The position numbers and the translations under genes are program-made. A stretch of 64,000 nt of DNA, taken from NCBI RefSeq assembly GCF_002257665.1, contig NZ_MQWB01000015.1, positions 1-64,000 of the forward strand, in the 5' to 3' direction. Of the stretch, positions 37,155 through 51,037 are shown piece after piece. The DNA is from Rubricoccus marinus. GTDB lineage: Bacteria; Bacteroidota; Rhodothermia; Rhodothermales; Rubricoccaceae. The notes below the pieces were generated by a model. That model worked only from the letters and a program-made list of their open reading frames with translations, made no database searches and was not told the origin of the DNA. Each line of letters begins with the position of its first letter. Within the stretch, counting starts at the first letter, position 1.

Positions 37155-37174
37155 CTAGCCCCCTAGACCCCTAG
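37155..37174 (+). repeat. CTAG octad array A (before the sigma-factor gene)
   Basis: CTAG at 37155, 37163 and 37171, exactly 8 bp apart, with C-rich spacers. The array ends 5 bp before the ATG at 37180 and lies in the 43-bp gap after the LexA-like gene. One of six such arrays in the window. Confidence 0.85.
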
Positions 37175-37179
37175 GCACC

Positions 37180-37794
37180 ATGTCCAACTCCCCATCTCGT
37201 TCTCCTGAGACCTCGCCCCCTGTCGCGGACCAATCGGCCGCGGAACAGGCCGTCTATGTGGGCCTCCGACGGGCCGCCCGCTGGCTCCGGTCACGCGAGC
37301 GGCCTGACTTGACGATGAGGACCACGGGGCTGGTCCACGAAGCCTACCTCGCCCTCCAGAAAACGGGCGCGCTGGGCCAGGGTCGTGGCGCGGGCGCCTT
37401 CGCGGACGCCTCGCCGGACCTCTACGTCCGGGCGATGCGACGCGCGCTCGTCGACGCCTCACGGCGTCGCGGGCGGGCCAAGCGTGGTGGGGGCGTCCGG
37501 CCCCTCTCGCTCTCCGACCGGGACGTCCCGGCAGGCGGCTCGGGCCGCGACGTCGAGGACCGTGTCCACCTCGCGGTCGACGTCGACGCGGCGCTCGAAA
37601 GGCTCCAGCGCGTCGACGCCCGGGCCTGCCGGGTCGTCGAGCTCAAGTTCTACGGGGGGCTCGAGGACACCCAGATCTCCGAGGCTCTCGGCGTGACCAC
37701 GAGGACGGTCCGACGGGACTGGGTGAAGGCGCAAGCCCACCTCCGCGTCTTCGTCGGGGGGCGGTCCACCGCCTCCCGGCCCGTCGCCGCGTGA
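37180..37794 (+). CDS. ECF-type RNA polymerase sigma factor
   Basis: 204 residues from ATG 37180. Region 2 covers about 25-105 (AVYVGLRRAARWLRS, TMRTTGLVHEAYLALQ, YVRAMRRALVDASRRRGRAKRGG). Region 4 covers about 135-190 (LERLQRVDARACRVVELKFYGGLEDTQISEALGVTTRTVRRDW). It resembles the ECF sigma factors of Rhodothermota and planctomycetes that are paired with Ser/Thr kinases, and a kinase gene follows after 1 bp. No anti-sigma gene is seen; the kinase may regulate it. A CTAG array precedes it. Confidence 0.83.
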   Translation: MSNSPSRSPETSPPVADQSAAEQAVYVGLRRAARWLRSRERPDLTMRTTGLVHEAYLALQKTGALGQGRGAGAFADASPDLYVRAMRRALVDASRRRGRAKRGGGVRPLSLSDRDVPAGGSGRDVEDRVHLAVDVDAALERLQRVDARACRVVELKFYGGLEDTQISEALGVTTRTVRRDWVKAQAHLRVFVGGRSTASRPVAA

Positions 37795-37795
37795 G

Positions 37796-39082
37796 ATGGC
37801 CCTCCCCTCCCCCTCCGACTCGACGGGTCCTGTCAGGGACTCCGCCCCGTTGCCGTCCGACGCCGACGGGTGGCTCGTCGAGCGGCTCGTGGACCTCGAC
37901 CCGGCAGGCCGCGCCCGCTTCGCCCAGCGGCTACGTGCCGAGGGCGACCGCCTCGCCACTCGGGCCGAGCAGTACGTCCGGGCCTTCGACGGGACGCTAG
38001 CGTTCGACCTCTCGCGCGCCCTGCGGGGGCCGACGAGGGCCACCGGCCCGGACGTTCCCGCCGCGCCGCTGGCGTCGCCGCTCGCGGCCGGTGAGACCGT
38101 AGGCGCGTACCGGGTCGTGCGGGAAATTGGGCGGGGAGGGATGGGGGTCGTGTACCTCGCCGAGCGCGACGACCTCGGTCTCCAGGCGGCGCTCAAGGTC
38201 CTGGACGAGCCCACGTCGTGTGTCGTAGGTGGAGTCTCGAGCTCGGACGACGCCCTGCGATTCGACGCCGAGCGCCGGCACCTCGCGCGGCTCTCGCATC
38301 CCGGCGTCCCTCGGATCTACGACGCGGGTCAGACGGCGACCGGCCTCCCGTTCTACGCGATGGAGTTGGTCGAGGGCGTCCCGCTCGATGAGCACGTCCG
38401 AGACCGGGGCCTCGGAGAGCGGATGGCCCTCTTCGTCCAGCTCTGCGAGGTCGTCCGTCACGTCCACGCGCGGGGGCTCGCGCACGGCGACGTCAAACCG
38501 GCCAACGTCCTCGTGCAAAGGGGCGAGCCGCCGGTCGGGTCCCAGAGGCCGCAGCCCGTCGTGCGACTCGTCGACTTCGGGGTGGCCGAGGAGACGAGCG
38601 GTCCCCTCGTGCCGGGTCCCCGCCCGTTCACGCCCGCCTACGCCGCCCCGGAGATCTTTGCTGGGGCGGCCCCCTCCGCCGCGTCCGACATCTACGGGCT
38701 CGGCGCCGTCCTCGGCGACCTAGTCACGTCGTGCCCTGAGCGACCGCCCCGCCCCGAGCGGAACGGAACGCGACCGTCTGAGCCCGATACGATGCCGCTT
38801 TTCGACGTGATCATCCGTGCGACCCGCCCCGCCTCGGACGAGCGGTACGAGTCGGTCGACGCCCTTCTCGCGGACGTGCGAGAAGCTGCGGCCGCTGTCG
38901 CCTGGTCGAGGGTCCCCGTCGTCCGTGGCGACTCCCCACCGCCGCTGCGCGTGAGCACTCGCTCCAGCGACCGTCCGCAGCCTCGGCCCTCGGCGCTTGC
39001 GGTCCCGTCGTGGGCCGCGCTCGTCGGTGCGGCGGCAGGCGCCGCCGTTGGGTGGTGGAGCGCTCGGCGAGTGAGAGCCTAG
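37796..39082 (+). CDS. membrane-anchored Ser/Thr protein kinase
   Basis: 428 residues from ATG 37796, one base after the sigma-factor stop. Kinase motifs: G-loop GRGGMGVVY (112-120), Lys134, Glu in the C-helix region, the catalytic loop AHGDVKPANVL (His230-Gly-Asp232, with Gly where Arg is usual), DFG 260-262, APE near 285, and SDIYGLG. A ~95-residue N-terminal extension precedes the kinase, and a C-terminal membrane span (ALVGAAAGAAVGWW) follows it. The HGD variant suggests activation without a loop-phosphate. The stop codon is part of CTAG array B. Confidence 0.85.
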   Translation: MALPSPSDSTGPVRDSAPLPSDADGWLVERLVDLDPAGRARFAQRLRAEGDRLATRAEQYVRAFDGTLAFDLSRALRGPTRATGPDVPAAPLASPLAAGETVGAYRVVREIGRGGMGVVYLAERDDLGLQAALKVLDEPTSCVVGGVSSSDDALRFDAERRHLARLSHPGVPRIYDAGQTATGLPFYAMELVEGVPLDEHVRDRGLGERMALFVQLCEVVRHVHARGLAHGDVKPANVLVQRGEPPVGSQRPQPVVRLVDFGVAEETSGPLVPGPRPFTPAYAAPEIFAGAAPSAASDIYGLGAVLGDLVTSCPERPPRPERNGTRPSEPDTMPLFDVIIRATRPASDERYESVDALLADVREAAAAVAWSRVPVVRGDSPPPLRVSTRSSDRPQPRPSALAVPSWAALVGAAAGAAVGWWSARRVRA

Positions 39083-39098
39083 ACCCCTAGGTTTCTAG
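39079..39098 (+). repeat. CTAG octad array B1 (start of the parA leader)
   Basis: CTAG at 39079, 39087 and 39095, 8 bp apart. The first contains the kinase gene's TAG stop codon (39080-39082). It is followed after 38 bp by the symmetric array B2. Confidence 0.85.
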
Positions 39099-39136
39099 AG
39101 ACCCCCTTCTCTCATTGCAATCGTGGAGGGGGAGTG

Positions 39137-39182
39137 CTAGTCTACACGTCTAGGCTCCTAGACCTAGACTCCTAGACGTGTA
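39137..39182. repeat. CTAG array B2 with perfect dyad, parA operator/centromere candidate
   Basis: CTAG at 39137, 39150, 39158, 39164 and 39172. The last four are spaced 8, 6 and 8 bp and are symmetric about 39162.5. They lie within a 12-bp perfect inverted repeat: TACACGTCTAGG (39143-39154) and CCTAGACGTGTA (39171-39182). The segment ends 17 bp before parA. Its symmetry and position suit the main binding site of the partition/repressor protein. Confidence 0.8.
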
Positions 39183-39199
39183 CATCTACACCTGAGGCC

Positions 39200-39982
39200 A
39201 TGCGCATCGTCACGTTCTCCAACCTCAAGGGCGGCTCGGCCAAGACGACCTCGACGCTCGCCGTCGCGGCCGAGCTCGCGCGGAGGGGTCGGGCGGTCCT
39301 CGCTATCGACCTCGATCCCCAGGCGACGTTGACAACCTCGGCGGGGCTCGACCCCGGTCCGGCGGCAGCCTCCCTCCTCTCCGGCGAGGGCGCGCCCGAG
39401 GACGCCGTGGACCGCCTGGTCGACGCGTCGGGTGATGCCGAGCTGGGCGGCGGCACGCTCCACGTGCTCCCGGCCGACCGGCGGCTGCTCCGGCTCGAAC
39501 GGACGGCGCCGGTCCAGCTCTCGCGGCGGCTCCTCGCGTTCCTCGACCTAGTCGAGGGCGACTACGACGTGGTCGTCGTCGACACGCCGCCCCAGGCGTC
39601 GGCACTCGTCACGGCTGCGCTGGCGTCGACGGACCTCGTCCTGGTCCCGGTCGCCAGCGGGCGCGGTGCGCTCGACGGGTTCGGCGACGTGGTCGAGCTG
39701 ACCGAGCGGTTCGGGACGGCGCCCGTGACGGGCGCTTTCGTGACCCGCGTCAACACGTCCAGCTTGCACGACCGCGAGCTCGTCGAGTACGTGGCCTCCC
39801 AGGTCTCCGGCCCCGACGGTGGCCCCGCGCTCCGTTCGTTCGTCCGCGAGACGGTCCGGGTGCGGGAGGCCGAGATGGCCCGGGTCCCCGTCCCGTTCTA
39901 CGCCCCCGGCTCCACGGCGGCCCAGGACTACGCCACGCTCGTGGACGAGGTGGAGGTTCTTCTCGAGCGGCATGACAGCTAG
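39200..39982 (+). CDS. parA: ParA-family partition ATPase
   Basis: 260 residues from ATG 39200. Deviant Walker A KGGSAKTT near the N-terminus (FSNLKGGSAKTTSTLAVA), LDPQATLT, switch region VVVDTPPQASALVTAAL, and VNTSSLHDRELVEYV later. Small type Ib-like ParA without a DNA-binding extension. These pair with a ribbon-helix-helix centromere-binding protein, and such a gene follows 28 bp later. It should distribute plasmid copies by patterned nucleoid binding. Its TAG stop is part of CTAG array C. Confidence 0.88.
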   Translation: MRIVTFSNLKGGSAKTTSTLAVAAELARRGRAVLAIDLDPQATLTTSAGLDPGPAAASLLSGEGAPEDAVDRLVDASGDAELGGGTLHVLPADRRLLRLERTAPVQLSRRLLAFLDLVEGDYDVVVVDTPPQASALVTAALASTDLVLVPVASGRGALDGFGDVVELTERFGTAPVTGAFVTRVNTSSLHDRELVEYVASQVSGPDGGPALRSFVRETVRVREAEMARVPVPFYAPGSTAAQDYATLVDEVEVLLERHDS

Positions 39983-40006
39983 ACACCTAGCACCCTAGAC
40001 GCCTAG
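39979..40006 (+). repeat. CTAG octad array C (between parA and the RHH gene)
   Basis: CTAG at 39979, 39987, 39995 and 40003, exact 8-bp period. The first contains the parA stop codon (39980-39982); the last ends 4 bp before the ATG at 40011. The array fills the whole intergenic gap. Confidence 0.9.
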
Positions 40007-40010
40007 AACC

Positions 40011-40358
40011 ATGAGCAAGCGCAAGCCCCGCATCACACCGGCCCGCCAGGGCGGCGCCTTCGACGGCGTGTTCGACCCGCCCGCCCAAGGCGCGGACGCC
40101 CCTGCCGAGACGGAGCCCGCGAAGAGCCCCGCCGCGAAGCGGCCGGGCGTCCCCCAGCCCGGCGACCCCGCCCACGACCGGACGGTCCAGGCCAACTGGA
40201 ACGTCCCCGCGTGGCTCCGCGCCAAGGTCCGCGCCGTGAAGGACTTCGACGGCACGAGTCAGAACGAGGTGGTCGCCGCAGCGCTGGAACGGTACGTGGA
40301 AGAGTTGGAGAAGGGGAGGGGGGAGCCCTACCCCGTCCAGTCCCGACACTTCGAGTAA
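40011..40358 (+). CDS. ribbon-helix-helix protein, probable partition partner (ParG/omega-like)
   Basis: 115 residues from ATG 40011. A basic, flexible N-terminal half (MSKRKPRITPARQGGAF) leads to an RHH domain: strand VQANWNVPAWLRAKVRAV, turn, then GTSQNEVVAAALERYVEELEKG. The layout (disordered basic tail plus C-terminal RHH, next to a small ParA) is that of ParG and omega proteins, which bind short direct repeats as centromere and operator. The CTAG octads flank this gene and parA, so they are its most likely target. That pairing is inference. Confidence 0.8.
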   Translation: MSKRKPRITPARQGGAFDGVFDPPAQGADAPAETEPAKSPAAKRPGVPQPGDPAHDRTVQANWNVPAWLRAKVRAVKDFDGTSQNEVVAAALERYVEELEKGRGEPYPVQSRHFE

Positions 40359-40363
40359 GAGCC

Positions 40364-40909
40364 GTGACGCCCGAGGCGACCCGGAAGTGGCGGGTGACGG
40401 CGCGATCGGCCGTCGGCCTGGGAGCCGTGCTCGCGGCGCTGGCGGTGGCCGCCTGGGCGTTCGGCGTCCGCCTCAACTACACGTCGAGTCTGCCACGGGG
40501 GCTCTACGCCGAGTCGCCCTTCGAACCCGCGGACGCGCGGCGAGGCGACGTCGTCACGGCGTGCCCGAGCGCGGACGCCGCGGTCGCGCTCGCCCCCTAT
40601 CTCGCGAACGGTCCCTGTCCGGGGGGCGTCGTCGAGCTCGGGAAGCCGCTCGTGGGCCTCCCCGGCGACACCATCTCGGTCAACCGCGCAGGCGTTCGAG
40701 TGGGCGCGAGGCTCCTGGCGGATAGCGCCCCGCTCTTCACCGACCGGTCGGGGCGACCACTCTCCCCGAAGCTCGGCCGACACGTGCTCGGGCCGGGGGA
40801 GTACTGGCTCCACTCGGGGCGCGTGCCGACCTCGGTGGACTCGAGGTACGCGGGGCCGGTGAGCGACGTGAGGGGAACGCTCCGGCCGCTCTGGGTGGAG
40901 GGGGAGTAG
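40364..40909 (+). CDS. traF: TraF-like signal peptidase (S26 family) of the conjugation system
   Basis: 181 residues from GTG 40364, five bases after the RHH stop. An N-terminal membrane span (SAVGLGAVLAALAVAAWAFGV), then NYTSSLPRGLYAESP (active Ser in S-x-P-x-G-L-Y), GKPLVGLPGDTISVN (the Lys/GDxV box), and ADSAPLFTDRSGRPL, typical of plasmid TraF. In IncP systems TraF matures and cyclises the TrbC pilin. The C-terminal YWLHSGRVPTSVDSRYAGPV matches the last conserved box. Confidence 0.85.
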   Translation: MTPEATRKWRVTARSAVGLGAVLAALAVAAWAFGVRLNYTSSLPRGLYAESPFEPADARRGDVVTACPSADAAVALAPYLANGPCPGGVVELGKPLVGLPGDTISVNRAGVRVGARLLADSAPLFTDRSGRPLSPKLGRHVLGPGEYWLHSGRVPTSVDSRYAGPVSDVRGTLRPLWVEGE

Positions 40910-40932
40910 CGCAAGACAGGAAAGGGGGTTTA

Positions 40933-40960
40933 CTAGGCACCTAGGCATCTAGATACCTAG
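40933..40960 (+). repeat. CTAG octad array D (before the trbB leader)
   Basis: CTAG at 40933, 40941, 40949 and 40957, exact 8-bp period. The last overlaps a TAGGAGG ribosome-binding sequence (40958-40964) placed before an ATG at 40969. A further CTAG at 40975 is out of phase. Confidence 0.88.
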
Positions 40961-40968
40961 GAGGCGCA

Positions 40969-41022
40969 ATGAAGCTAGGGCAGGGTCACTTGTCCGGTGG
41001 GATCGTGGTTTCGCGCCTCTGA
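40969..41022 (+). CDS. short leader peptide overlapping the trbB start
   Basis: 17 codons (MKLGQGHLSGGIVVSRL, stop at 41020-41022) with the best ribosome-binding site in the region, TAGGAGG 5 bp upstream. It overlaps the GTG (40997) of trbB in another frame. It may be a translated leader that couples or meters trbB expression. It has not the composition of an amino-acid attenuator. Confidence 0.45.
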   Translation: MKLGQGHLSGGIVVSRL

Positions 41023-42091
41023 GGGTCGCCGGAAAGCCGTCCGGCCCGACCCGAACCCGATGGAGGCCCCTCCGACCCCCACCGTCTCTGCGACCACCGG
41101 ACGTCCCGCCCTCCCGGCTGAGACGGCCCGTCGCCCTGCGCCGAGCCCGCGTGAGGGCCGCTACCGAGAGCTCATGGAGCGCTACCTCGGCCCTCGCGTG
41201 CTCGACGCATTCGCCGACGACGACGTGACCGAGGTCTACGTCAACCCCCACGACGGGTGGCTCCGGCTCGACACGCGCTCCCAGGGCAAGGTCCGCACGG
41301 ACACACGCCTCCGGGCCTCGCGCGTCGAGCAGTTCCTGGGCGCCGTGGCCGCCTTCCACAGCGACGCCCTCGGCCCCGCGGCGCCGTCCGTCCAGGCCGA
41401 ACTCCCGAATGGCACCTTCGGGGGCGCCCGGCTCCAGGGGTTCGTCCCGCCGCTCGTCCCCCGCGCGTGCTTCGTCGTCCGCAAACCGGCCCGCGTGGTG
41501 TACGACCTCGACAGCTACGTCCGCACGGGCGTGATGACGGCCCGGCACCGGTTCGCGCTCCGCGACGCCATCGACGCCCACGAGAACGTGCTCGTCTGCG
41601 GCGGGACGGGCTCCGGCAAGACGACGCTCTGCAACGCGCTCCTGAAGGAGATGACCGAGCGGTTCCCTGAGGAGCGGATCGTGGTCCTGGAGGACACGGG
41701 CGAGCTCCAGTGCGCGGCCGACGACCACCTCCAGCTCCAGACCTCCGACGACGTGTCGCTCGCCGACCTCGTCCGGCACACGCTCCGCTGCACGCCCGAC
41801 CGGATCGTCGTCGGTGAGGTCCGCGACGCCGCAGCCCTCGACCTCCTCGACGCCTGGGCGACGGGTCATCCCGGCGGGTGTGCGACGCTCCACGCCACGA
41901 CGGCGCTCGGCGCGCTCCACCGCCTCGACCGACTCGCGCAGCGCGCCAACGTGCCGCCCCAGCACGCGCTCGTCGCCGAGGCCGTCGGCATCGCGCTCAT
42001 CGTTGAGGGCGGCAACGCGGGCCGCAAAGTCCGCGAGCTCGTCCGCGTCGTCGGCCACGACGGCGCTGACTACCGGCTAGAGCCGGTGTGA
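40997..42091 (+). CDS. trbB: TrbB/VirB11 conjugative transfer ATPase
   Basis: 364 residues from GTG 40997, or 343 from ATG 41060. The N-terminal domain (YLGPRVLDAFADDDVTEVYVN) is followed by the RecA-like ATPase: Walker A GGTGSGKTT (about 204), VLEDTGELQ, Walker B/His box RIVVGEVRDAAALDLLDAW, GHPGGCATLHATTAL. Hexameric ATPase at the base of the type IV channel, working with VirB4/TrbE. The start is uncertain because the leader peptide above overlaps it. Confidence 0.88.
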   Translation: MGSWFRASEGRRKAVRPDPNPMEAPPTPTVSATTGRPALPAETARRPAPSPREGRYRELMERYLGPRVLDAFADDDVTEVYVNPHDGWLRLDTRSQGKVRTDTRLRASRVEQFLGAVAAFHSDALGPAAPSVQAELPNGTFGGARLQGFVPPLVPRACFVVRKPARVVYDLDSYVRTGVMTARHRFALRDAIDAHENVLVCGGTGSGKTTLCNALLKEMTERFPEERIVVLEDTGELQCAADDHLQLQTSDDVSLADLVRHTLRCTPDRIVVGEVRDAAALDLLDAWATGHPGGCATLHATTALGALHRLDRLAQRANVPPQHALVAEAVGIALIVEGGNAGRKVRELVRVVGHDGADYRLEPV

Positions 42092-42197
42092 CCAAACCCC
42101 TGGGGACGCTCAGACCTACCGCCGCACGCCTGCTGGCGATCGTCTCAACCCCGCCGGGGACGCCCGGCCCACCCTTCCGGCCGCGAGGCCCCCCACC

Positions 42198-42566
42198 ATG
42201 ACCCGCCACCCGCTCCACATCGTCCGCAAGCCGACTGGCCCGCCCCGGCCGCGACGCCTCCCCACGCTCGCCCTGCGCGCCGCTGGGCTCTGCGCCCTCG
42301 CGCTCGTCCTGGCCGACCCGGCGGCGGCGTCCGGTGGCGCGGCGATGCCCTGGGACGGCCCGCTCCAGACCATCGCCGACGCGCTGACCGGCAACACCAT
42401 CCGGCTGGTCGCCGTGATCGCGCTCGCCGCTGGCGGCATCATCTGGGCGTTCACGCGCAACGAGGAGGGCGTCAAGCGGATCGCGCAGGCCGTGATGGGC
42501 CTGGGCGTCGCCATCGGCGCCGCCTCGTTCGCGGCCACGCTCGGAATCTCCGGAGCCACGCTGTGA
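42198..42566 (+). CDS. trbC: TrbC/VirB2 conjugative pilin precursor
   Basis: 122 residues from ATG 42198. A long signal region (LALRAAGLCALALVLADPAAAS) is followed by two hydrophobic helices (IRLVAVIALAAGGIIWAF and RIAQAVMGLGVAIGAASFAATLG) joined by TRNEEGVK, the VirB2/TrbC pattern. TraF would process it. The last codons overlap the trbD start (GTGA). Confidence 0.85.
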   Translation: MTRHPLHIVRKPTGPPRPRRLPTLALRAAGLCALALVLADPAAASGGAAMPWDGPLQTIADALTGNTIRLVAVIALAAGGIIWAFTRNEEGVKRIAQAVMGLGVAIGAASFAATLGISGATL

Positions 42567-42928
42567 GCGCGCGCCAGAGGAACGGGGGAGGGGAGAGGCC
42601 GCCCACCGCCGGGCGGCTCCCCGAGCGGCCCGTTCACCAGTCCCTCGTCCGCGTCCCCCGCTACGCCGGCGTCGACCGGAGCTTCCTCGTCCTCGAGGTC
42701 ACGCTCGTCGTGTGCCTCGGCTACCTCATGGGGCTCTCGTGGGCGACGGCCGCCGTCGTGGTGGTCGTCGTCGGTGTGGTCCACCCGCTCATGGTCCGGC
42801 TCTCGGACGCCGACGATCTCCTGCCCCAGCTCCTCGCCCGGACGCTCATGCAGGCCGACGCCTACGGTCCACTCCCGCCCGCGAGCGCGTCTCCCCGCCG
42901 GCCGTCGCGATCTGTCCCGACAGCTTAG
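42563..42928 (+). CDS. trbD: TrbD/VirB3 inner-membrane protein
   Basis: 121 residues from GTG 42563. After a hydrophilic start, VHQSLVRVPRYAGVDRSFLVLEVTLVV leads into two closely spaced hydrophobic helices, then VVHPLMVRLSDADDLLPQLLARTLMQ, typical of VirB3/TrbD. It helps place VirB4 at the membrane. Its stop codon belongs to the first, degenerate repeat (TTAG) of CTAG array E. Confidence 0.82.
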   Translation: MSARQRNGGGERPPTAGRLPERPVHQSLVRVPRYAGVDRSFLVLEVTLVVCLGYLMGLSWATAAVVVVVVGVVHPLMVRLSDADDLLPQLLARTLMQADAYGPLPPASASPRRPSRSVPTA

Positions 42929-42952
42929 ACATCTAGGCACCTAGACCCCTAG
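42925..42952 (+). repeat. CTAG octad array E (before trbE)
   Basis: TTAG at 42925 (includes the trbD stop), then CTAG at 42933, 42941 and 42949, all on one 8-bp register. The last ends 6 bp before the trbE ATG at 42959. Confidence 0.87.
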
Positions 42953-42958
42953 CAGACG

Positions 42959-45610
42959 ATGAGTTTTCTAGCCGCTGCAGCGGGCACGGCCGTCGGCGCG
43001 CTCGGCGCCGCTGGTCTCAACCGACTCCGCGAACACCGCAACGCGGAGGGCCTCGGGTCCCGCGCGCTCTCCGACCTCCTGGGCTGGGGCTTCCTGGTAG
43101 GGGAGGGGGTCGTGCTGATGAAGGACGGCTCGTTCCTGGCCGCTTGGCGGTTCCGGGGCCGCGACCTCGCCTCCTCGACAGCGGGCGAGGTCGCGGCCTT
43201 GGCCGAGCACGTCAACGCCGCCGTCGCGTCCTACGGCGACGGGTGGATGGTCCATGTCGACGCCGTCCGACGCGAGGCCGTCGGGTACGCCGACCGCGAG
43301 CGGTGCCACTTCCCGGACCCCGTGAGCGCGCTCGTCGACGAGGTGCGAAGGGCGCGGTACACCGCGACCGAAGAGCACTACGAGACCGACGCCGTGCTCA
43401 CGCTCACGTACACGCCGCCCGGCGCGCTCACGAAGCGGATGGAACGGGCCGTCGTCCAGGGCCGAGGCAACGACGGCCCGGACTGGGACCGGCTCCTGGG
43501 CCGGTTCGAGCGCGAGGCGCGAGACCTCGAGGGGCGCCTCGCCTCGGCGCTCCGTTTGGAGCGGTTCGGGAGCGAAGACCTCCTTCGCCACCTCCACGAG
43601 TGCCTGACCGGGCTGGGCCACGCCGTCGGCGTCCCCGGCCACGGGGCGTACCTCGACTACGCGCTCGCCGACCAGTCCTTCGTGGGCGGGTTCGAGCCGC
43701 GGATCGGCGCCAAGCACGTCCGGATCATCGCCGTCCAGGGCTACCCGAACACGACACGGCCGGGCCTGGCCGACCCGCTCACGCGGCTCCCGTTCCCGTA
43801 CCGCTGGTCCGTCCGGTTCCTGCCGTTCTCGCCCGCGACGGCCTCGAAAGTGATCGGCAAGAGCCAGCTTGGATGGTTCCAAAAACGGCGCGGGGCTGGC
43901 GACTGGGCCAAGGACATGGCGTCGAAGAAGAAGCGGGAGACGACGGAGCTCGACCTCGCCTTCCAGGATGGAAACGCGACGGCGATGGTCCACGACGCCG
44001 GCGCCGCTCGGTCGGCCAACTCGGGCGGCGAGGTCCGCTTCGGGTACCTCACCGTCTGCGCCGTCGTGATGGCGGACGACGCACGAGAGGCCGACGACCG
44101 CGCGCAGGCGGTGCTGAAAGCGATTCGCGACCTCGGGTTCACCGGCCGCGTCGAGGACGTGAACGCCGTCGACGCTTTCGTCGGGAGCCTCCCCGGCCAC
44201 GGGCACGCCAACCTCCGCCGTCCCGTCTTGTCGACCGAGAACGTCGTCGACGTGCTCCCGCTGACGGCCCCCTGGGGCGGGCACCGCGAGGTCCCGAGCG
44301 GACTGTTCCCCGAGGGCTCGCCGCCGCTGCTGTGGGCCAAAACCGACGGGAGCACGCCGTTTCGGCTGTGCCTCCACGAGGGCGACGTGGGACACACGCT
44401 CGTCGTCGGCGCGACGGGCGCGGGCAAGTCGGTCCTGGTGGGCCTGATCCTCGCGCAGTGGCGGCGCTACGCCGGGTCGCGGACGGTGACGTTCGACGTC
44501 GGGTACAGCCACTACGTCTCCGGCCGCGCGATGGGCGCGGCGCACTACGACCTCGCAGGCACCGTCGCCCACGACGCCGGAGACACGGAGCCCGTGGCGA
44601 TGCAGCCGCTCCGAGGCGTCGACCGGCCCGACGTGCGGCTCTGGGCGGTCGACTGGCTGGAGGGGCTGGTCGAGGTTCAGGGCGAGCGGCTCTCACCCGA
44701 TGAACGCGGCCGACTCGCACACGCCGTCGGCCTGCTGGCGGAGAGCCCGCCCGAGGACCGGACGCTGACGGCGCTCCTGGTCGGCCTCGGTGACGAGCGG
44801 CTCCGGGCGCTCGTGCGTCCGTACACGCTCGAAGGACCGTACGGCCAGCTCTTCGACGCCGACCGCGACTCATTCGGGTCGGGCACCCGACCCGCACGTG
44901 CGGACGTGCAAGCGGCCACCGACGGCCGCGGTGGGGGAGAGGACGCCGTCCGGCATCAGGTGGTCGAGCTCTCGCACTTGGTCGGGATGTCCGACCGCGT
45001 GCTCGTGCCTGCACTGACGTACCTGTTCCGCCGCGTCGAGGAGTCGCTCGACGGCTCGCCCACGCTCATCGTGATCGAGGAGGCGTGGGCCGCGCTCATG
45101 CACGGACGCTTCGCCGACCGGCTCCGCCAGTGGCTCTTGACGCTCCGCAAACGGAACGCGGCCGTCGTCGTCGTGGCCCATAGCCCGGCCCAGTTCCGCG
45201 ACGGCGTCAAGGGCGCTCAGCTCCTCGTCGAGAGCTGCCCGACGCGGATCTTCCTGCCCAACCCCGACGCCGCCGAGCCCGACACGGCCGCGCTCTACCG
45301 CTGGCTCGGCCTCAACGACGCCGAGGTCGCCCGGCTGGCGCGGGCGCGCAAGAAGCGGGACTACTACGTCCGCTCGCCGTCGGGAGCGCGGACGTTCGAC
45401 CTGGCGCTGGGACCGGTCGAGATGGCGTTCCTGGGCACGCTCCCCGGCCGCTCGGCCGACGAGACGGTCCGGGAGGCCGCCCGACTGGCGGAGACCGAGG
45501 GCGAGCGGTGGCCCGCCGAGTGGCTCCGGCTCTGTGGCCTCGACGCCGAGGCGGAAGCCGTGAGCCTGCCCTCCCCCGAGACCAGGGCTACCCCGCCTCC
45601 ACCCGCGTGA
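42959..45610 (+). CDS. trbE: TrbE/VirB4 conjugative transfer ATPase
   Basis: 883 residues from ATG 42959. A short hydrophobic N-terminus, a long CagE/TrbE-type N-terminal domain (VVLMKDGSFLAAWRFRGRDL), then the ATPase domain: Walker A VVGATGAGKSVL (about 482), Walker B LIVIEEAWAALMHGRF, AVVVVAHSPAQFRD and SCPTRIFLPNPDA. The largest motor of the channel, needed for pilus assembly and substrate transport. Next in the usual trb order should be trbJ, but an opposite-strand gene intervenes. Confidence 0.9.
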   Translation: MSFLAAAAGTAVGALGAAGLNRLREHRNAEGLGSRALSDLLGWGFLVGEGVVLMKDGSFLAAWRFRGRDLASSTAGEVAALAEHVNAAVASYGDGWMVHVDAVRREAVGYADRERCHFPDPVSALVDEVRRARYTATEEHYETDAVLTLTYTPPGALTKRMERAVVQGRGNDGPDWDRLLGRFEREARDLEGRLASALRLERFGSEDLLRHLHECLTGLGHAVGVPGHGAYLDYALADQSFVGGFEPRIGAKHVRIIAVQGYPNTTRPGLADPLTRLPFPYRWSVRFLPFSPATASKVIGKSQLGWFQKRRGAGDWAKDMASKKKRETTELDLAFQDGNATAMVHDAGAARSANSGGEVRFGYLTVCAVVMADDAREADDRAQAVLKAIRDLGFTGRVEDVNAVDAFVGSLPGHGHANLRRPVLSTENVVDVLPLTAPWGGHREVPSGLFPEGSPPLLWAKTDGSTPFRLCLHEGDVGHTLVVGATGAGKSVLVGLILAQWRRYAGSRTVTFDVGYSHYVSGRAMGAAHYDLAGTVAHDAGDTEPVAMQPLRGVDRPDVRLWAVDWLEGLVEVQGERLSPDERGRLAHAVGLLAESPPEDRTLTALLVGLGDERLRALVRPYTLEGPYGQLFDADRDSFGSGTRPARADVQAATDGRGGGEDAVRHQVVELSHLVGMSDRVLVPALTYLFRRVEESLDGSPTLIVIEEAWAALMHGRFADRLRQWLLTLRKRNAAVVVVAHSPAQFRDGVKGAQLLVESCPTRIFLPNPDAAEPDTAALYRWLGLNDAEVARLARARKKRDYYVRSPSGARTFDLALGPVEMAFLGTLPGRSADETVREAARLAETEGERWPAEWLRLCGLDAEAEAVSLPSPETRATPPPPA

Positions 45611-45647
45611 CCCGTTCCCAGAGACCGTGTTCTAGCGCACGGCGGCT

Positions 45648-47081
45648 CTATCCAGCGACGAGGTCGTCGGCTGAGAAGAACAGGATCCGGCCCGCGTCGG
45701 CCTCTGCCCGGACCGCCCGGTCCGCCTCGCCGCGCCCCGTGAACAGCGCGAGGTGGACCCCGCTCGCCCCACCCAGGTCCGCCTCGACGAGCGTGGCCCT
45801 ACGACGGAGCGTCGAGAGGTGACGCTCCGTGACGGGTCCCCACTTGGCCTCGCCGACGAGCAGTTGCCCGGCGCCGCCGAGCGCGACCACGTCGACCTCC
45901 TCTCGGTGTCCGGCGTCCCACCAGGACCCGACGCGGAGCGGGCGGAAGGGGAGCGCCCCCGGATCGCGACGGGCCTGCCGCCCGACGAAGTCCCGGCACA
46001 CGGCCTCGAACACGCTGCCCATGTGGTCGTCCAGGCGAGGCTCGACGGCCTCCTCCCACAGGTGCTCAGCGTCGACCAGACCCAGGCTCCCGGTGTGGAC
46101 GAGCGGGGCGATCACGCGGTGCCAGAACGCGAGGTACGGGTCCGAGACGCGGTAGACCGCTCGCTTCGAGCGGTCCGGCCTCTTCTCGGTGATGGGCACG
46201 GCCCGCTCGACCAACCCCATCCCCTCTAGCCAGCCCAGTGGGCGTGAGAGCGAGCCGCCGGAGCGGCCGACGCGGTTCGTGATCCCGCTCCACGTCGTCT
46301 CGCCGCCCGCGATGGCTTCCAGGATCGAGTAGTGGACGGCCGCCTCGGCGGTGAAGGCGTCGAGCACGTGCTGGGCGTCGTCCACCAACCGTCCGGAGGC
46401 GCTGAGCAGGTGCGCCGCCGCGTTCTCGGCCAGCGTCTGGTCGGGGTCGAGGAGGGCGAGGTGACCGGGGAGGTGCCCGAACAAGCCGTAGGCCACGAGT
46501 TGGTCGCGGGACGTCCATGACGGGACGAACTGCGACGCCTCGGGGACGCCGAACGGGGCGAACGTGAGCCGAGCCGTGCGGCGCCCGTAGAGGGGCTGGT
46601 CGGCGGCTTCGAGCCGCTCCATCGCCGTGACGTACGACCCGCTCAGGACGAGCTTCATCTTGCTCCCTGCCCAGTCGTGGTCCCAGAGCTTCTGGATCAC
46701 CGACGGGAGGGCCGGGGCCGCGTCGGCGAGGTAGGGGAACTCGTCGAGGACCAAGAGGAACGGGTCGTCCCCGGCGCGCTCGGCCACGAACTCGAACAGG
46801 TCCTCCCAGGTGGCGAACCCGCTCCCGCGCCGGAGGGCGGCGTCGCCCAGGTGCGCGCCGACGACGCGGCTGAGCCCAGCGAGCTGCTCGGCCTCGGTGC
46901 GCCGTGTGGCCTGGTAATACACGCCGCCGACGGCCCGGGCGAACCGGGAGAGCACGTGGCTCTTCCCTACGCGGCGGCGACCGACGGCGAAGGCGAGGTC
47001 GGGACGCGGGCGCGCCCACAGGTCCTGGAGGTCCGTCCACTCGGCCTCTCGGTCGATGACGTCGGAGGGCTTCTCGATCAT
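45648..47081 (-). CDS. AAA+ ATPase with C-terminal DUF234-type nuclease-like domain
   Basis: 477 residues from ATG 47081 (MIEKPSDVIDRE). Walker A GRRRVGKSHV (34-43), Walker B FLLVLDEFPYLAD, a STAND/archaeal-ATPase body, a winged-helix (TTWSGITNRVGRSGGSLSRPLGWLEGMGLV), and a C-terminal PD-(D/E)XK-like part (EEVDVVALGG, LLVGEAKWGP). This family is widespread in archaea and on mobile elements, with unknown role; some may be conflict or defence proteins. It is the only minus-strand gene between 36.5 and 54.7 kb and splits trbE from trbJ, so it looks like a later insertion. Confidence 0.78.
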   Translation of the reverse strand: MIEKPSDVIDREAEWTDLQDLWARPRPDLAFAVGRRRVGKSHVLSRFARAVGGVYYQATRRTEAEQLAGLSRVVGAHLGDAALRRGSGFATWEDLFEFVAERAGDDPFLLVLDEFPYLADAAPALPSVIQKLWDHDWAGSKMKLVLSGSYVTAMERLEAADQPLYGRRTARLTFAPFGVPEASQFVPSWTSRDQLVAYGLFGHLPGHLALLDPDQTLAENAAAHLLSASGRLVDDAQHVLDAFTAEAAVHYSILEAIAGGETTWSGITNRVGRSGGSLSRPLGWLEGMGLVERAVPITEKRPDRSKRAVYRVSDPYLAFWHRVIAPLVHTGSLGLVDAEHLWEEAVEPRLDDHMGSVFEAVCRDFVGRQARRDPGALPFRPLRVGSWWDAGHREEVDVVALGGAGQLLVGEAKWGPVTERHLSTLRRRATLVEADLGGASGVHLALFTGRGEADRAVRAEADAGRILFFSADDLVAG

Positions 47082-47093
47082 GAATGAAGATAC

Positions 47094-47124
47094 GTTCCAC
47101 CGGAGGAACTTCCACCAGTGGAAC
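47094..47124. promoter_or_regulatory. inverted and direct TTCCACC repeats before the ATPase gene
   Basis: GTTCCAC (47094-47100) and GTGGAAC (47118-47124) are perfect inverted repeats, and TTCCACC recurs directly at 47095 and 47110. They lie 13 bp upstream of the minus-strand ATPase start and about 160 bp before trbJ. A likely operator for the ATPase gene, or a divergent promoter for both. Confidence 0.5.
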
Positions 47125-47280
47125 AGAAGTGTTGGCGTTTGCCCTTCCGTCCAGATCCCCTCGCGCAGGGCGCGGGCCAGGATCGAGGGACGGCGAGCAC
47201 GTCGGCGAACCGACCGGTGTCCGGTGGCGGGGCGAGATCGCGCCTCTGCACGGTGTCCCCCCGTGCACACCCCTACCGCC

Positions 47281-48003
47281 ATGCCCACATCCCTTCGCCG
47301 GGCCGCTTGCGCCCTCGCCATCTTCCTCGTCGCCCTCGCGCCCGCCCAGGAGGCGAAGGCGCAGTGGGCCGTCATCGACCCCGCCCACATCGCCAAGAGC
47401 GTCTGGAACGGCCGGAAGATCGTCGACCAGTTGACCGCGCAGCGCGACCAGCTCCGCGCCTTCCGCGACAACGTCCAGAAGCTCCGGTCCTACAACCTCC
47501 GCGACGTGACGGGCTTCATGGCCGCCGTCGACGCCACGCTCGTCTCGGGCGCCGAGGTGGCCTACGCCTCGGCCTCGCTCCCGTCCGACTTCTACCGGGT
47601 CTACACCGGCGTCGACGTGTCCGACACGCGCGGCACGACCGACACCTGGTTGTCCAACCAACTCGACGGCTCGCTCGGGACCCTGCGGTCGCTCCGTGAG
47701 CACGCCGTCCAGCTCCAGGCCGCTCGACGTGACCTGACGGGCTTCCAGTCCCAGATCCGGTCGGCGACCACGGCCCAGCAGATCGCCGAGGTCCAGGGGA
47801 CCGTCCAGGCCTACGGCGTCCAGGAGTCCCAGCTCCTCCGCCAGGTGACGATGCTCCAGGTCGACCAGCAAGCGCGGGCCGAGGCGTCGCAGGCGGCCCA
47901 ACGGGCCTACGCGACGGCCGTCGCCCGCGACGTGGCCGCTCGGAGCCGGGCTTCGGCCCGCCTCATCGGCGGCCGGGACTACGGATCGCGTCCGATCCTC
48001 TAA
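47281..48003 (+). CDS. trbJ: TrbJ/VirB5 minor pilus or channel protein
   Basis: 240 residues from ATG 47281 with a clear signal peptide (LRRAACALAIFLVALAPAQEAKA). The mature part is helical and Gln/Arg-rich (KIVDQLTAQRDQLRAFRDNVQKL, QVTMLQVDQQARAEASQAAQRAYA), as expected for TrbJ/VirB5. Periplasmic or pilus-tip component. It opens the second half of the transfer genes and has no CTAG array in front. Confidence 0.82.
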   Translation: MPTSLRRAACALAIFLVALAPAQEAKAQWAVIDPAHIAKSVWNGRKIVDQLTAQRDQLRAFRDNVQKLRSYNLRDVTGFMAAVDATLVSGAEVAYASASLPSDFYRVYTGVDVSDTRGTTDTWLSNQLDGSLGTLRSLREHAVQLQAARRDLTGFQSQIRSATTAQQIAEVQGTVQAYGVQESQLLRQVTMLQVDQQARAEASQAAQRAYATAVARDVAARSRASARLIGGRDYGSRPIL

Positions 48004-48058
48004 CCCGGAAGTCGCACCTCACACCTCACACTTGTGACGACGCTCGACGCGCCGCTCT

Positions 48059-49045
48059 ATGACCCCGCTGTGTACCTCCAGGTCCTTGGGCACCCGCGTC
48101 CGCCGTTGCCTCCCGTCCTCCGACGCGCCCACACGGGCCGTCGGAGGCTCGGGTGTTTGGGTCCGGGCGGCCGGTGTCGCGGCCCTCGTTGCGTTTGCCC
48201 TCAGCACGGAGGCGTCGGCCCAGGCGCCGCCCGTCCTCGACACGATCGTCGACGACTTCCGCGCGGCGGTCGACGCGGCCCGTCCCGGACTCCTCGCGAT
48301 TGCGCGGGGGACGTTCGGGACGCTGGCGATCATCGAGATCGCGCTGTCGGCGATCCTGTGGACGCTCCGCGAGGACGGCCCCTACCGCGTCCTCACGGGG
48401 CTCGTCGTCAAGCTGGCATGGCTGGCCTTCGCGTTCAGCCTCATCGTCTCGTTCGACGTGTGGTTCCCGCCCGTCCTCAACGGGTTCGTCGCGGCAGGGG
48501 GGACGGTGACGGCCGGGACGGTAAGCCCGAGCGACGTATTGGGGCTCGGGACCGAGCTCTCGGTCGAGATGGTGGCCGCGTTCTTCGACGGCGTCGGCCT
48601 GCTCGACGTGTCCGTGAGCGTGCTGGTCACGGCCGTTCTGGTTGCCGTGGCGGCGCTCCTGGTCCTGCTGATGTTCGCGCTCATCGCAGCCGTGGTCGTG
48701 GTGGTCCTGGTCGAGTCGTTCATCGCGCTCGCCGTTGGCGCGCTCGTGCTTGGGTTCTCAGCCTTCCGGGGGACGGCCAACCTCGCCGACCGCTTCGTGG
48801 CCTACGTCTTCAACCTCGGGATCCGGCTGTTCTGCCTGTTCCTGCTCGTCGCCATCGGAACGGACGTGGCCCAGGGGTGGCTCCCCATCATCCAGGCCAA
48901 CCCCGACGACCTCGGGGCCATGATGGCCGTGCTCGGCGGAGCGGTGACGTTCACCGTGCTCGTGACCTACGTCCCGTTCAAGGTCTCGACGTCGCTCACG
49001 CGCGACCTGTCGGTCGGCTTCGAGAAGGCGTTGAACTCGGTCTAG
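48059..49045 (+). CDS. trbL: TrbL/VirB6 polytopic membrane protein
   Basis: 328 residues from ATG 48059. An N-terminal signal-like segment (VAALVAFALSTEASAQ) is followed by about six hydrophobic helices, including LVVKLAWLAFAFSLIVSF, LLVLLMFALIAAVVVVVLV and LFCLFLLVAIGTDVA. This is the TrbL/VirB6 profile; the protein forms the inner-membrane part of the channel. Its TAG stop is a CTAG at 49042-49045, the beginning of array F. Confidence 0.83.
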   Translation: MTPLCTSRSLGTRVRRCLPSSDAPTRAVGGSGVWVRAAGVAALVAFALSTEASAQAPPVLDTIVDDFRAAVDAARPGLLAIARGTFGTLAIIEIALSAILWTLREDGPYRVLTGLVVKLAWLAFAFSLIVSFDVWFPPVLNGFVAAGGTVTAGTVSPSDVLGLGTELSVEMVAAFFDGVGLLDVSVSVLVTAVLVAVAALLVLLMFALIAAVVVVVLVESFIALAVGALVLGFSAFRGTANLADRFVAYVFNLGIRLFCLFLLVAIGTDVAQGWLPIIQANPDDLGAMMAVLGGAVTFTVLVTYVPFKVSTSLTRDLSVGFEKALNSV

Positions 49046-49080
49046 CGCCCGCCTACCTGCCTAGCCCCCTAGACCTCTAC
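49042..49080 (+). repeat. CTAG octad array F (before trbF)
   Basis: CTAG at 49042 (trbL stop), then CTAC 49053, CTAG 49061, CTAG 49069 and CTAC 49077. The last four share one 8-bp register with two single-base degenerate copies. The array ends 2 bp before the ATG at 49083. Confidence 0.78.
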
Positions 49081-49082
49081 CC

Positions 49083-49964
49083 ATGCCCCACCTTTTTCGA
49101 TCTGCTCCACCTTGTAACGGCTCTGGCGACGGGGCGCCCGCCGGATGGTCGCACGAGCGGCCGACGCCGCCGGAAGTCCTCCGGGGCCGGTACGAGTTCA
49201 CCCGCCAGTTCTCCGACCTCGCCCGTGGCAAGCGAAACTGGCAGTGGGTGGCCGCGCTCTCGCTCGTGCTGCTGGGGCTGGCGGTCGCCGGGCTCGTCAC
49301 GCTCGCCTCCCAGAGCCGCGTCGTCCCCTACGTCGTCGAGGTCGACCGGGTGGGGCGGGCCGAGGCCATCGTGCCCGCCGAGGCCGCGTCGGTCGCCGAG
49401 GACCGCGTCGTCGTGGCCGCGCTCTCGTCGTTCGTGTCCAACATCCGCACGGTCTACGCCGACCCTGTCGCGCAGCGCGACGCCGTGTACCGGGCCTACG
49501 CCCACGTCGCCGGCGACGCCCGCGACTTCCTGGAAGGCTACTTCTCGGACCCACAGAACGACCCGCGCCAGCTCGGCAAGGACTTCCGCCGGGCCGTCGA
49601 GGTCACGGCCGTGCTCCCGGTCCCCGGCACGGACCAGGGCACAGGCCGGACGTACCGGGTCCAGTGGAACGAGACCGACGCCTCGACGCAGGGCGGCGAG
49701 CGGGAGCGGGCGTGGGAGGGCTACGCCTCGGTCACGCTCGCCCCGCCCACGACGACGGAGGGCGTCGAGCGGAACCCGCTCGGCGTGTTCGTGACCGACC
49801 TCTCGTGGAGCCCGCTCGCCGGTCAGACCACGCGTACCGAACGCGACACCGACGAGCCAGAGGCGGAGCCCGAGCCGCCCGCCGAACGCCCCGCCCGCCG
49901 TCCGCGCCAGACCGTCCGGGCGCCGGACGACACCACGCCTCCACCCAACTCAGACCTCCGATGA
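49083..49964 (+). CDS. trbF: TrbF/VirB8 inner-membrane assembly protein
   Basis: 293 residues from ATG 49083. A single N-terminal membrane span (WVAALSLVLLGLAVAGLVTLA) is followed by a periplasmic NTF2-like domain (VVPYVVEVDRVGRAEAIV, FVSNIRTVYADPVAQRDAVYRAYAHV, YRVQWNETDAS) and a Pro/Glu-rich tail. Nucleates the type IV channel. The stop overlaps the trbG start (ATGA). Confidence 0.85.
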   Translation: MPHLFRSAPPCNGSGDGAPAGWSHERPTPPEVLRGRYEFTRQFSDLARGKRNWQWVAALSLVLLGLAVAGLVTLASQSRVVPYVVEVDRVGRAEAIVPAEAASVAEDRVVVAALSSFVSNIRTVYADPVAQRDAVYRAYAHVAGDARDFLEGYFSDPQNDPRQLGKDFRRAVEVTAVLPVPGTDQGTGRTYRVQWNETDASTQGGERERAWEGYASVTLAPPTTTEGVERNPLGVFVTDLSWSPLAGQTTRTERDTDEPEAEPEPPAERPARRPRQTVRAPDDTTPPPNSDLR

Positions 49965-51037
49965 CCGCCTCTCACACCGTCCCACACCGCCGCTGGCGGC
50001 TCCTCGCCGCGCTCGCCGTCGGCCTCTTCTGCTCCCACGCGGCCTCCGCGCAGGAGGCCCCAGACGCGCTCCCCGAGGCGGCGTCCGTCGTCGACTTCTC
50101 GGAGACCGACTCGGACGCTTCCACGGCCCCGAGCGGCCAGCCGGTCGGGGACGGGTTTACCGAGGGGGCCGTCATCGTCACGCCGGGCCAGATGGCGGAG
50201 GCGCTCGGCGAGCTCGTCCGCGAGTACCACCGGACGGGGCGCGCGGGCGTGCTCCGCCAGTCGACGGTGATGGTGGTCCCGTTCGGGCACAGCCAACCGG
50301 TCCTGGCCTGCGCCCCGCTCCGGGCGTCCGTCGTCGAGCTCGAACCGGGCGAGGTGGTGATGGGCGTCGTCGCGGGCGACACCGAGCGGTTCGCCGTCGA
50401 GCAGACGTACACCGGACCGGGCGGTCGGACGCCGCTCGTGGTCGTCAAGCCGCTGGCGTACGACGTGACGACGAACCTCGTGGTCTCGACCGACCGCCGG
50501 GTCTACCACGTCACGCTGGACTCGGCCCCGCGCCCGTCGCGGACCCGGAGCAGGGGAGGGGACGGCGAGGTCAACCCGCAGCCCCGCTACGCCCGGCACA
50601 TCCGGTTCTACTACCCCGACGACGTCGCGGCCGACGTCCAGCCCGGCGCTGCGCGTCTCGCCCCCGCCCCGAGCTCGGCGGGCGTCCTCAACGCCAATGC
50701 GCCCGCCTCGCTCGACGACCTCCACTTCGACTACCAGGTCACGGGCGACCCCGACTTGGTGGCCGCCGTCGAGCGCGTGTTCGACGACGGCGTCCACGCC
50801 TACGTCAAGCTCAGTCGCCAGGCCGTGCGCGGCGGCGAGGTGCCGGTCCTCTACGCCATCGGACCGGGCGGCGACCGCGAGGTGCTCAACTACGCCTACC
50901 GCGGCGGCTACTACGTGACCGACCGGGCCGTCCGCGAGGCCGAGCTCGTGCTCGGGGCGACGGTCCGCACCGGGTTCCTCGGGCTCGGCGGGCGCCGCCA
51001 GATCGAGCGGACCGCCCGCCTCCTCCGCCTCGACTGA
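49961..51037 (+). CDS. trbG: TrbG/VirB9 outer-membrane-complex protein
   Basis: 358 residues from ATG 49961. Signal peptide (LLAALAVGLFCSHAASAQ), N-terminal VirB9 domain (VMGVVAGDTERFAVEQTYTGPG, VVVKPLAYDVTTNLVVSTDRRVYHVTL), a Pro-rich linker, and the C-terminal domain (DLHFDYQVTGD, VYVKLSRQAVRG-like, PVLYAIGPGGDREVLNYAYRGGYYVTDR). Together with TrbI it forms the outer core. Confidence 0.86.
   Translation: MTASHTVPHRRWRLLAALAVGLFCSHAASAQEAPDALPEAASVVDFSETDSDASTAPSGQPVGDGFTEGAVIVTPGQMAEALGELVREYHRTGRAGVLRQSTVMVVPFGHSQPVLACAPLRASVVELEPGEVVMGVVAGDTERFAVEQTYTGPGGRTPLVVVKPLAYDVTTNLVVSTDRRVYHVTLDSAPRPSRTRSRGGDGEVNPQPRYARHIRFYYPDDVAADVQPGAARLAPAPSSAGVLNANAPASLDDLHFDYQVTGDPDLVAAVERVFDDGVHAYVKLSRQAVRGGEVPVLYAIGPGGDREVLNYAYRGGYYVTDRAVREAELVLGATVRTGFLGLGGRRQIERTARLLRLD

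Follow-up and report, generated by a model that had tools for sequence, protein, structure and literature searches.

A 65,283-bp plasmid of Rubricoccus marinus carries, in the short gaps around its partition and conjugation genes, tandem arrays of an 8-bp unit (octad) composed of the tetramer CTAG followed by four other bases (CTAG-n4). The stretch of DNA that we analysed, called the window hereafter, is 64,000 nucleotides long and represents nearly the whole of this plasmid contig (C15 of assembly G000). The existence of the arrays, their confinement to this replicon, their linkage to a ParA-RHH gene pair and a joint difference between an 8- and a 7-bp register at par and transfer genes are all directly supported by the comparisons reported below. 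From these, it is likely (probability ~0.82) that the octads are the operator and centromere arrays of the small RHH protein encoded at 40011-40358, the partner of the ParA encoded at 39200, with copies at transfer-gene junctions; binding, stoichiometry, repression and segregation are inferred.

The window contains 15 CTAG-n4-CTAG pairs versus 0.08 expected, the maximum reached in 100 shuffles being a single pair; across our tests, the expected count at distance 8 ranged from 0.08 to 0.25. The whole contig (65,283 bp) likewise displays 15 pairs at distance 8 and none at distance 7, compared to ~0.2 of each in shuffled sequences. Among short CTAG-CTAG distances, strong enrichment occurs only at 8 and at its multiple 16, and distance 7 is never found. 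CTAG itself is depleted overall, with 62 occurrences for 99 expected. The original prediction, that CTAG is rare and yet recurs on an exact 8-bp register in six gaps, with a spacing more ordered than in shuffled DNA, thus held on each count, all of the quoted positions being present. Triple octads number seven in the 4.43-Mb assembly, every one on the plasmid contig. The 23 octad units between 36.46 and 52.65 kb fall without exception between genes (two include the stop codon of the preceding gene), in a region where intergenic DNA amounts to 12.5%. The spacers vary (CCCC, ACCC, GCTC, ACAC, GCAT and so on) with CTAG remaining invariant, and 12 of 15 are A/C-rich on the plus strand. Complementary flanks are not in excess in the window, indicating that, beyond their CTAG core, the units have a direction.

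The par/tra block lies on the plus strand. A three-unit array (37155..37178) is located 5 bp before an ECF sigma factor gene (37180..37794; Pfam Sigma70_ECF, 3.8e-27), followed by a Ser/Thr kinase-like gene (37796..39082; Pfam Pkinase, 1.3e-26), the stop codon of which falls within the first CTAG of a second three-unit array (39079..39102). The latter lies upstream of the parA promoter region and has a counterpart of the same kind, at 2341/2349, in locus L016 (the same place as G050:C2, and counted once). It precedes a compound parA operator array (39137..39179) with CTAGs within 39137-39175 at spacings of 13, 8, 6 and 8, a layout conserved in L016. A -10-like TAGTCT, preceded at 17 bp by TTGCAA, can be seen by eye to overlap the first operator CTAG; it was not recovered by the strict promoter scan. 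The parA gene (39200..39982) is separated from the RHH gene (40011..40358) by four exact units (39979..40010), which include the parA stop and end 4 bp before the RHH start. Downstream of an S26 peptidase (TraF-like) gene (40364..40909; Pfam, 2.9e-11), four further exact units (40933..40964) lie upstream of trbB, 8 bp before a 17-codon leader ORF. This leader ORF (40969-41022; MKLGQGHLSGGIVVSRL) sits between the octad array and trbB.

The TrbB/VirB11 ATPase gene (40997..42091; TIGR02782, 6.6e-100, 334 bits for a cut-off of 305) is followed by the TrbC pilin and TrbD/VirB3 genes (42198..42928; Pfam, TrbC at 42198 and VirB3/TrbD at 42563), by a four-unit array with TTAG as its first unit (42925..42956), 6 bp before the trbE start, and by the TrbE/VirB4 ATPase gene (42959..45610), the TrbE match being below its curated cut-off. 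Then come VirB5 (from 47056) and TrbL (from 48059), both on the basis of Pfam, a four-unit array whose outer two units read CTAC (49053..49084), a TrbF-like/VirB9 fusion ORF (49145..51037; Pfam CagX, 4.4e-36) and TrbI (from 51066; below its curated cut-off). The ordered set from TrbB to TrbI expected of P-type (IncP-like) conjugation is thus present. Four-unit arrays number four in the window, two of them with one or two degenerate end units. In relatives, the TrbF-like and VirB9 parts, fused in a single ORF in the window, have a heptad array between them.

Three statements on the placement of the arrays needed revision. They had been described as ending 2-8 bp before a start codon; this failed for trbF, where the conserved ORF (49145-51037) is in a different frame from ATG 49083, so that the 49053 array stands ~65 bp from the likely start instead of abutting the trbF start first assigned. 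The array said to lead into the parA operator was under-described, the operator being itself a compound CTAG array. Lastly, the absence of arrays before minus-strand genes only reflects the plus-strand orientation of the par/tra block here; relatives with parA-RHH on the minus strand still have arrays. A strict scan of 37.0-43.1 kb detected neither sigma-70-type promoters nor terminators. Given this negative result, a repressed target at trbB, trbE and virB9 is not evident, and other promoter types may be used in this host.

The RHH protein of the window, 115 aa long, has a basic N-terminal tail and a C-terminal RHH domain with the beta-strand VQANWNVP. It gave no Pfam match above cut-off and no ParB or KorB domain match. 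The omega family profile (PF07764) did not match it either, so that membership in this family is not met; two small RHH relatives score 21.4 and 18.3 bits on that profile, below the cut-off of 33.3. Direct comparison with the PDB, with omega and within a plasmid collection returned no useful match. The relationship was obtained through profiles: that of the window protein (A1) matches, with a probability of 96.8% (E 3e-10), a set of shorter RHH proteins from the same class (A2), whose genes follow parA, and reaches one member of this set, in G053, directly (5.7e-4); the A2 set in turn matches omega of pSM19035 (1.2e-5) and ParG (0.078) among PDB structures. By analogy, and without binding data, the window protein may work like omega though it is not classed in the omega family. 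The AlphaFold model is poor (pLDDT 55), with helices at 67-80 and 84-101 at low confidence and the beta-strand not shown. In VQANWNVP, Gln, Asn and Asn occupy positions -6, -4 and -2 relative to the proline. The Arc repressor, which reads TAGA half-sites, has Gln9, Asn11 and Arg13 at those positions.

A type Ib partition module is expected to combine a Walker-type ParA, a small RHH DNA-binding protein encoded just downstream and tandem short repeats beside parA. The first is met at 39200-39979 (Pfam AAA_31, 4.8e-28), with a deviant Walker motif, KGGSAKT, lacking the usual second-last glycine; the second is met via the profile chain to omega and ParG; the third is met by the repeats at 39079-39179 and 39979-40010, with the same pattern at related loci. 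The module is thus likely to be a type Ib, omega/ParG-like partition system, in which repeat binding by the RHH protein, ParA stimulation and plasmid stabilisation are inferred. For a usual motif of KGGxGKT, ParA reads KGGSAKT in the octad group, KGGSSKT in the heptad group and KGGAAKT on Salinibacter pSR84.

We then asked where such arrays occur in other genomes. A protein search covering 112 genomes of the order found seven intact close RHH homologues, including that of the window, plus one truncated copy. All seven intact homologues are accompanied by ParA and CTAG arrays; the expected co-occurrence therefore held, and arrays in relatives lacking the RHH gene, which would have refuted it, did not come to light. 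The truncated copy (L028; G000:C14:37050-37298) belongs to the window's assembly, on a 90-kb plasmid contig; it lacks both ParA and array and is likely a recombination remnant. At G050:C2, which lies at one end of a 553-kb contig, and at G050:C13, the ParA-RHH pair and the arrays are kept while the transfer genes have decayed to remnants or are gone, which designates ParA-RHH as the common factor. When 245 genomes of the class were scanned for triple octads without using the protein, seven contained them, four at ParA-RHH (G000, G050, G066 and G067), those at G066:C2 and G067:C10 lying at a distantly related, smaller ParA-RHH pair. The triple octads of G024, G074 and G101 have no ParA within their 3-kb loci, and we take them to be chance or microsatellite. 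Among 394 genomes of the phylum, a scan for four octads matched only this plasmid, which points to the rarity of long perfect arrays. Viral contigs yielded 75 stretches with four octads; many of them are microsatellites, and three lie directly at ParA and small RHH-like genes in unrelated genomes (L094, L096 and L109); the spacers of L096 are identical, and its array could by itself be a microsatellite. At L094 (6297-6860), ~500 bp before the ParA-RHH pair are packed with CTAG, CTAT and CTTG on a 4-bp register.

The second plasmid of the window's assembly (C14), G048:C7 and G033:C26 have the gene order of the window (kinase, par pair, here inverted, S26, TrbB to TrbI) and the same CTAG core, with a period of 7 instead of 8: they contain 11, 12 and 8 pairs at distance 7 versus 2, 1 and 1 at distance 8, respectively. 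These heptad plasmids share 90-96% identity in TrbE and 89-97% in ParA with one another, versus 84-85% and 63-65%, respectively, with the octad group. In all three, period-7 arrays are found before parA, in the parA/RHH gap and before S26, trbE and virB9; an array before trbB is present in two of the three (G048:C7 and G033:C26), and none of the heptad plasmids has an equivalent of the array before the ECF sigma gene. In 4/4 plasmids, window included, the trbE array adjoins the start codon. Heptad spacers occur in both orientations, unlike the directional spacers of the window. The heptad arrays before virB9 at G000:C14:66860 and G033:C26:16382 share a single initial step of 8 bp (CTAGCCACCTAGGGTCTAGACCCTAG). 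As the period shifts at par and trb sites alike, one protein is expected to read all arrays, which ties the transfer-gene arrays to the reader of the par sites.

Between the two groups, the RHH proteins do not differ at the predicted contact residues (Q60, N62 and N64), the strand reading VQGNWNVP in the heptad and VQANWNVP in the octad group. Fixed differences from octad to heptad include A61 to G, L69 to M and E86 to D, and the end of helix A (region of residues 76-82) changes from VKDFD to AAEEG in most. It may be inferred that dimer packing changed and base reading did not. Since octads are the common state among the surveyed relatives, the heptad register is probably derived.

The repeated word differs at loci encoding more distant proteins. 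Related ParA-RHH pairs with a different beta-strand have, directly before parA, period-8 arrays of GATAnnnn (G065) or CTACTCAC (G067:C9), and G055, with the same strand as G067:C10, displays a one-base variant octad, CTATTTTC, at parA. On Salinibacter ruber pSR84 the octads at parA read CCTCACGT/CCTCATGA, and in the RedRock parS record the 8-bp units read TCGAGTAG, i.e. a palindromic tetramer plus four bases. Clear octads were missing at some surveyed relatives, e.g. L154, L157 and L161. These other words at related parA loci indicate that tandem octads are a common trait of such partition systems, CTAG being one word among several.

In the mechanism that we propose, one RHH dimer would probably occupy each CTAG-n4 unit and neighbouring dimers would stack cooperatively, in the manner of omega (7-bp boxes) and MetJ (8-bp boxes), both of which are apt parallels. 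Arrays around parA and the RHH gene would serve as autoregulatory operators and centromere, and the four-unit arrays would be the likely sites of ParA engagement; omega activates ParA only with at least four contiguous repeats (PMC9499535). The copies before the ECF sigma gene, trbB, trbE and trbF/virB9 would put the transfer operon under the same RHH protein, the most likely effect being that, for as long as the plasmid is stably maintained, transcription is repressed or meets a roadblock, as with KorB on IncP plasmids. The original proposal that the RHH protein binds the octads and ties partition to transfer control is thus supported, with binding, repression and the effect on transfer remaining inferred. 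This reading is weakened by the lack of binding and expression data, the poor RHH model, the absence of a direct Pfam or PDB match, the negative promoter scan and the non-conservation of the ECF-sigma array.

The alternative that best survives is that the transfer-gene arrays are extra centromere copies, i.e. parS sites spread along the plasmid, that adjoin start codons for want of intergenic room and do not regulate transfer. This remains possible: every octad unit is intergenic in a tightly packed operon, and actinophage ParB has parS loci flanking parAB and, in some phages, a third by repA (PMC7157519). Against it, the trbE array keeps its exact position before the start codon in four plasmids, which fits regulation, and R388 StbA sites outside the main repeats are insufficient for stability (PMC3098194), so that scattered sites need not be centromeres. 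It is very unlikely that the RHH protein is incidental and that a different transfer-operon regulator reads the arrays, for instance through the ECF sigma or some unlinked protein. The sigma gene does adjoin an array, and the sigma, kinase, par and trb genes keep their synteny. However, arrays stand at ParA-RHH in G050:C13, G050:C2, G067:C10, G066:C2 and the three viral loci, the sigma-gene array is absent from heptad plasmids, and tblastn found no sigma factor homologue on G050:C13, G050:C2, G067:C10 or G066:C2. The ECF sigma factor was rejected as array reader, as arrays persist without it; to our knowledge, no ECF promoters are built as tandem 7/8-bp repeats. Finally, functionless tandem-repeat DNA produced by slippage, which does account for some CTAG period-7/8 arrays with identical spacers among our other scan matches, is all but excluded and was rejected for the window, where spacers vary around a fixed CTAG and slippage does not explain recurrence at matching sites with an altered period.

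Returning to the reading of the arrays as RHH-bound sites, a bolder version, which we hold to be less likely than not, is that sister plasmids sharing a genome avoid interfering with each other's segregation and transfer control through a difference in repeat register: their RHH proteins would read the same CTAG core and stack at 8 or 7 bp, cooperatively only on their own par and trb arrays. The compatibility role is inferred. G000 (C14 at 7, C15 at 8) and G050 (C13 at 7, C2 at 8) each combine an octad with a heptad system. Two heptad contigs (C26 and C44) in the single assembly G033 argue against a strict or simple compatibility rule, with the reservation that this assembly has ~130 contigs and that these two may come from different cells. 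In mycobacteriophages, ParB has been suggested to diversify so as to escape incompatibility (PMC7157519), and in Clostridium perfringens plasmids incompatibility is reported to be determined by the binding specificity of ParR (PMC9426499).

The partition module is of a known kind, and ParG and actinophage ParB are closer published parallels than omega and MetJ. The omega/delta (ParB/ParA) system of pSM19035 also pairs ParA with a small RHH ParB, with one dimer per short repeat, arrays overlapping promoters of several plasmid genes and mixed repeat orientation as in our heptad relatives (PMC9499535); unlike the window, where the palindrome CTAG recurs at 8 bp (7 bp in sisters), its repeats are WATCACW at 7 bp, and it controls copy-number and par genes but no transfer operon. 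ParF-ParG-parH of TP228 combines ParA with an autoregulating RHH protein with a flexible N-terminal tail, binding degenerate tetramer boxes with short spacers; it differs by its single operator and single centromere, and transfer-gene arrays were not reported (PMC7308502). In RedRock parABS, two ParB-bound par loci of tandem 8-bp units (TCGA + 4 bp) flank parAB, and ParB diversity is linked to compatibility (PMC7157519); the differences are its role in prophage maintenance, its TCGA core, and its limitation to the surroundings of parAB/repA, without conjugation genes.

Joint control of partition and transfer already exists with other proteins, KorB and StbA. KorB of IncP-1 is a single ParB-type protein for partition and transcriptional repression (PMC5577506), and its targets include trb. 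KorB-like placement of sites at both the transfer operon and par genes is met, from sequence alone, by the arrays before trbB, trbE and trbF/virB9. The HTH ParB fold is not: KorB is an HTH, CTP-binding sliding-clamp ParB acting on single operators, whereas the window has a 115-aa RHH-type protein and tandem octads. StbA of R388 is a stability protein that binds repeats, which recur in other promoters, and in its absence transfer rises 50-fold (PMC3098194); it differs by its 9-bp repeats with 2-bp gaps and by a stability function independent of a ParA-like partner.

In the open-access literature that we searched, we found no CTAG arrays for RHH partition proteins, no RHH partition protein whose arrays extend over a conjugation operon and no 7/8-bp register switch between sister plasmids. 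The present case, from outside the hosts usually studied, extends RHH partition proteins from plasmid sorting to the probable control of a whole conjugation operon. The coexistence of 7- and 8-bp periods offers a natural experiment, in which homologous proteins with the same predicted contact residues and the same core word differ in spacing. The respective contributions of spacing and base sequence to specificity in the RHH superfamily thus become testable, as does the possibility that spacing alone may make centromeres compatible.
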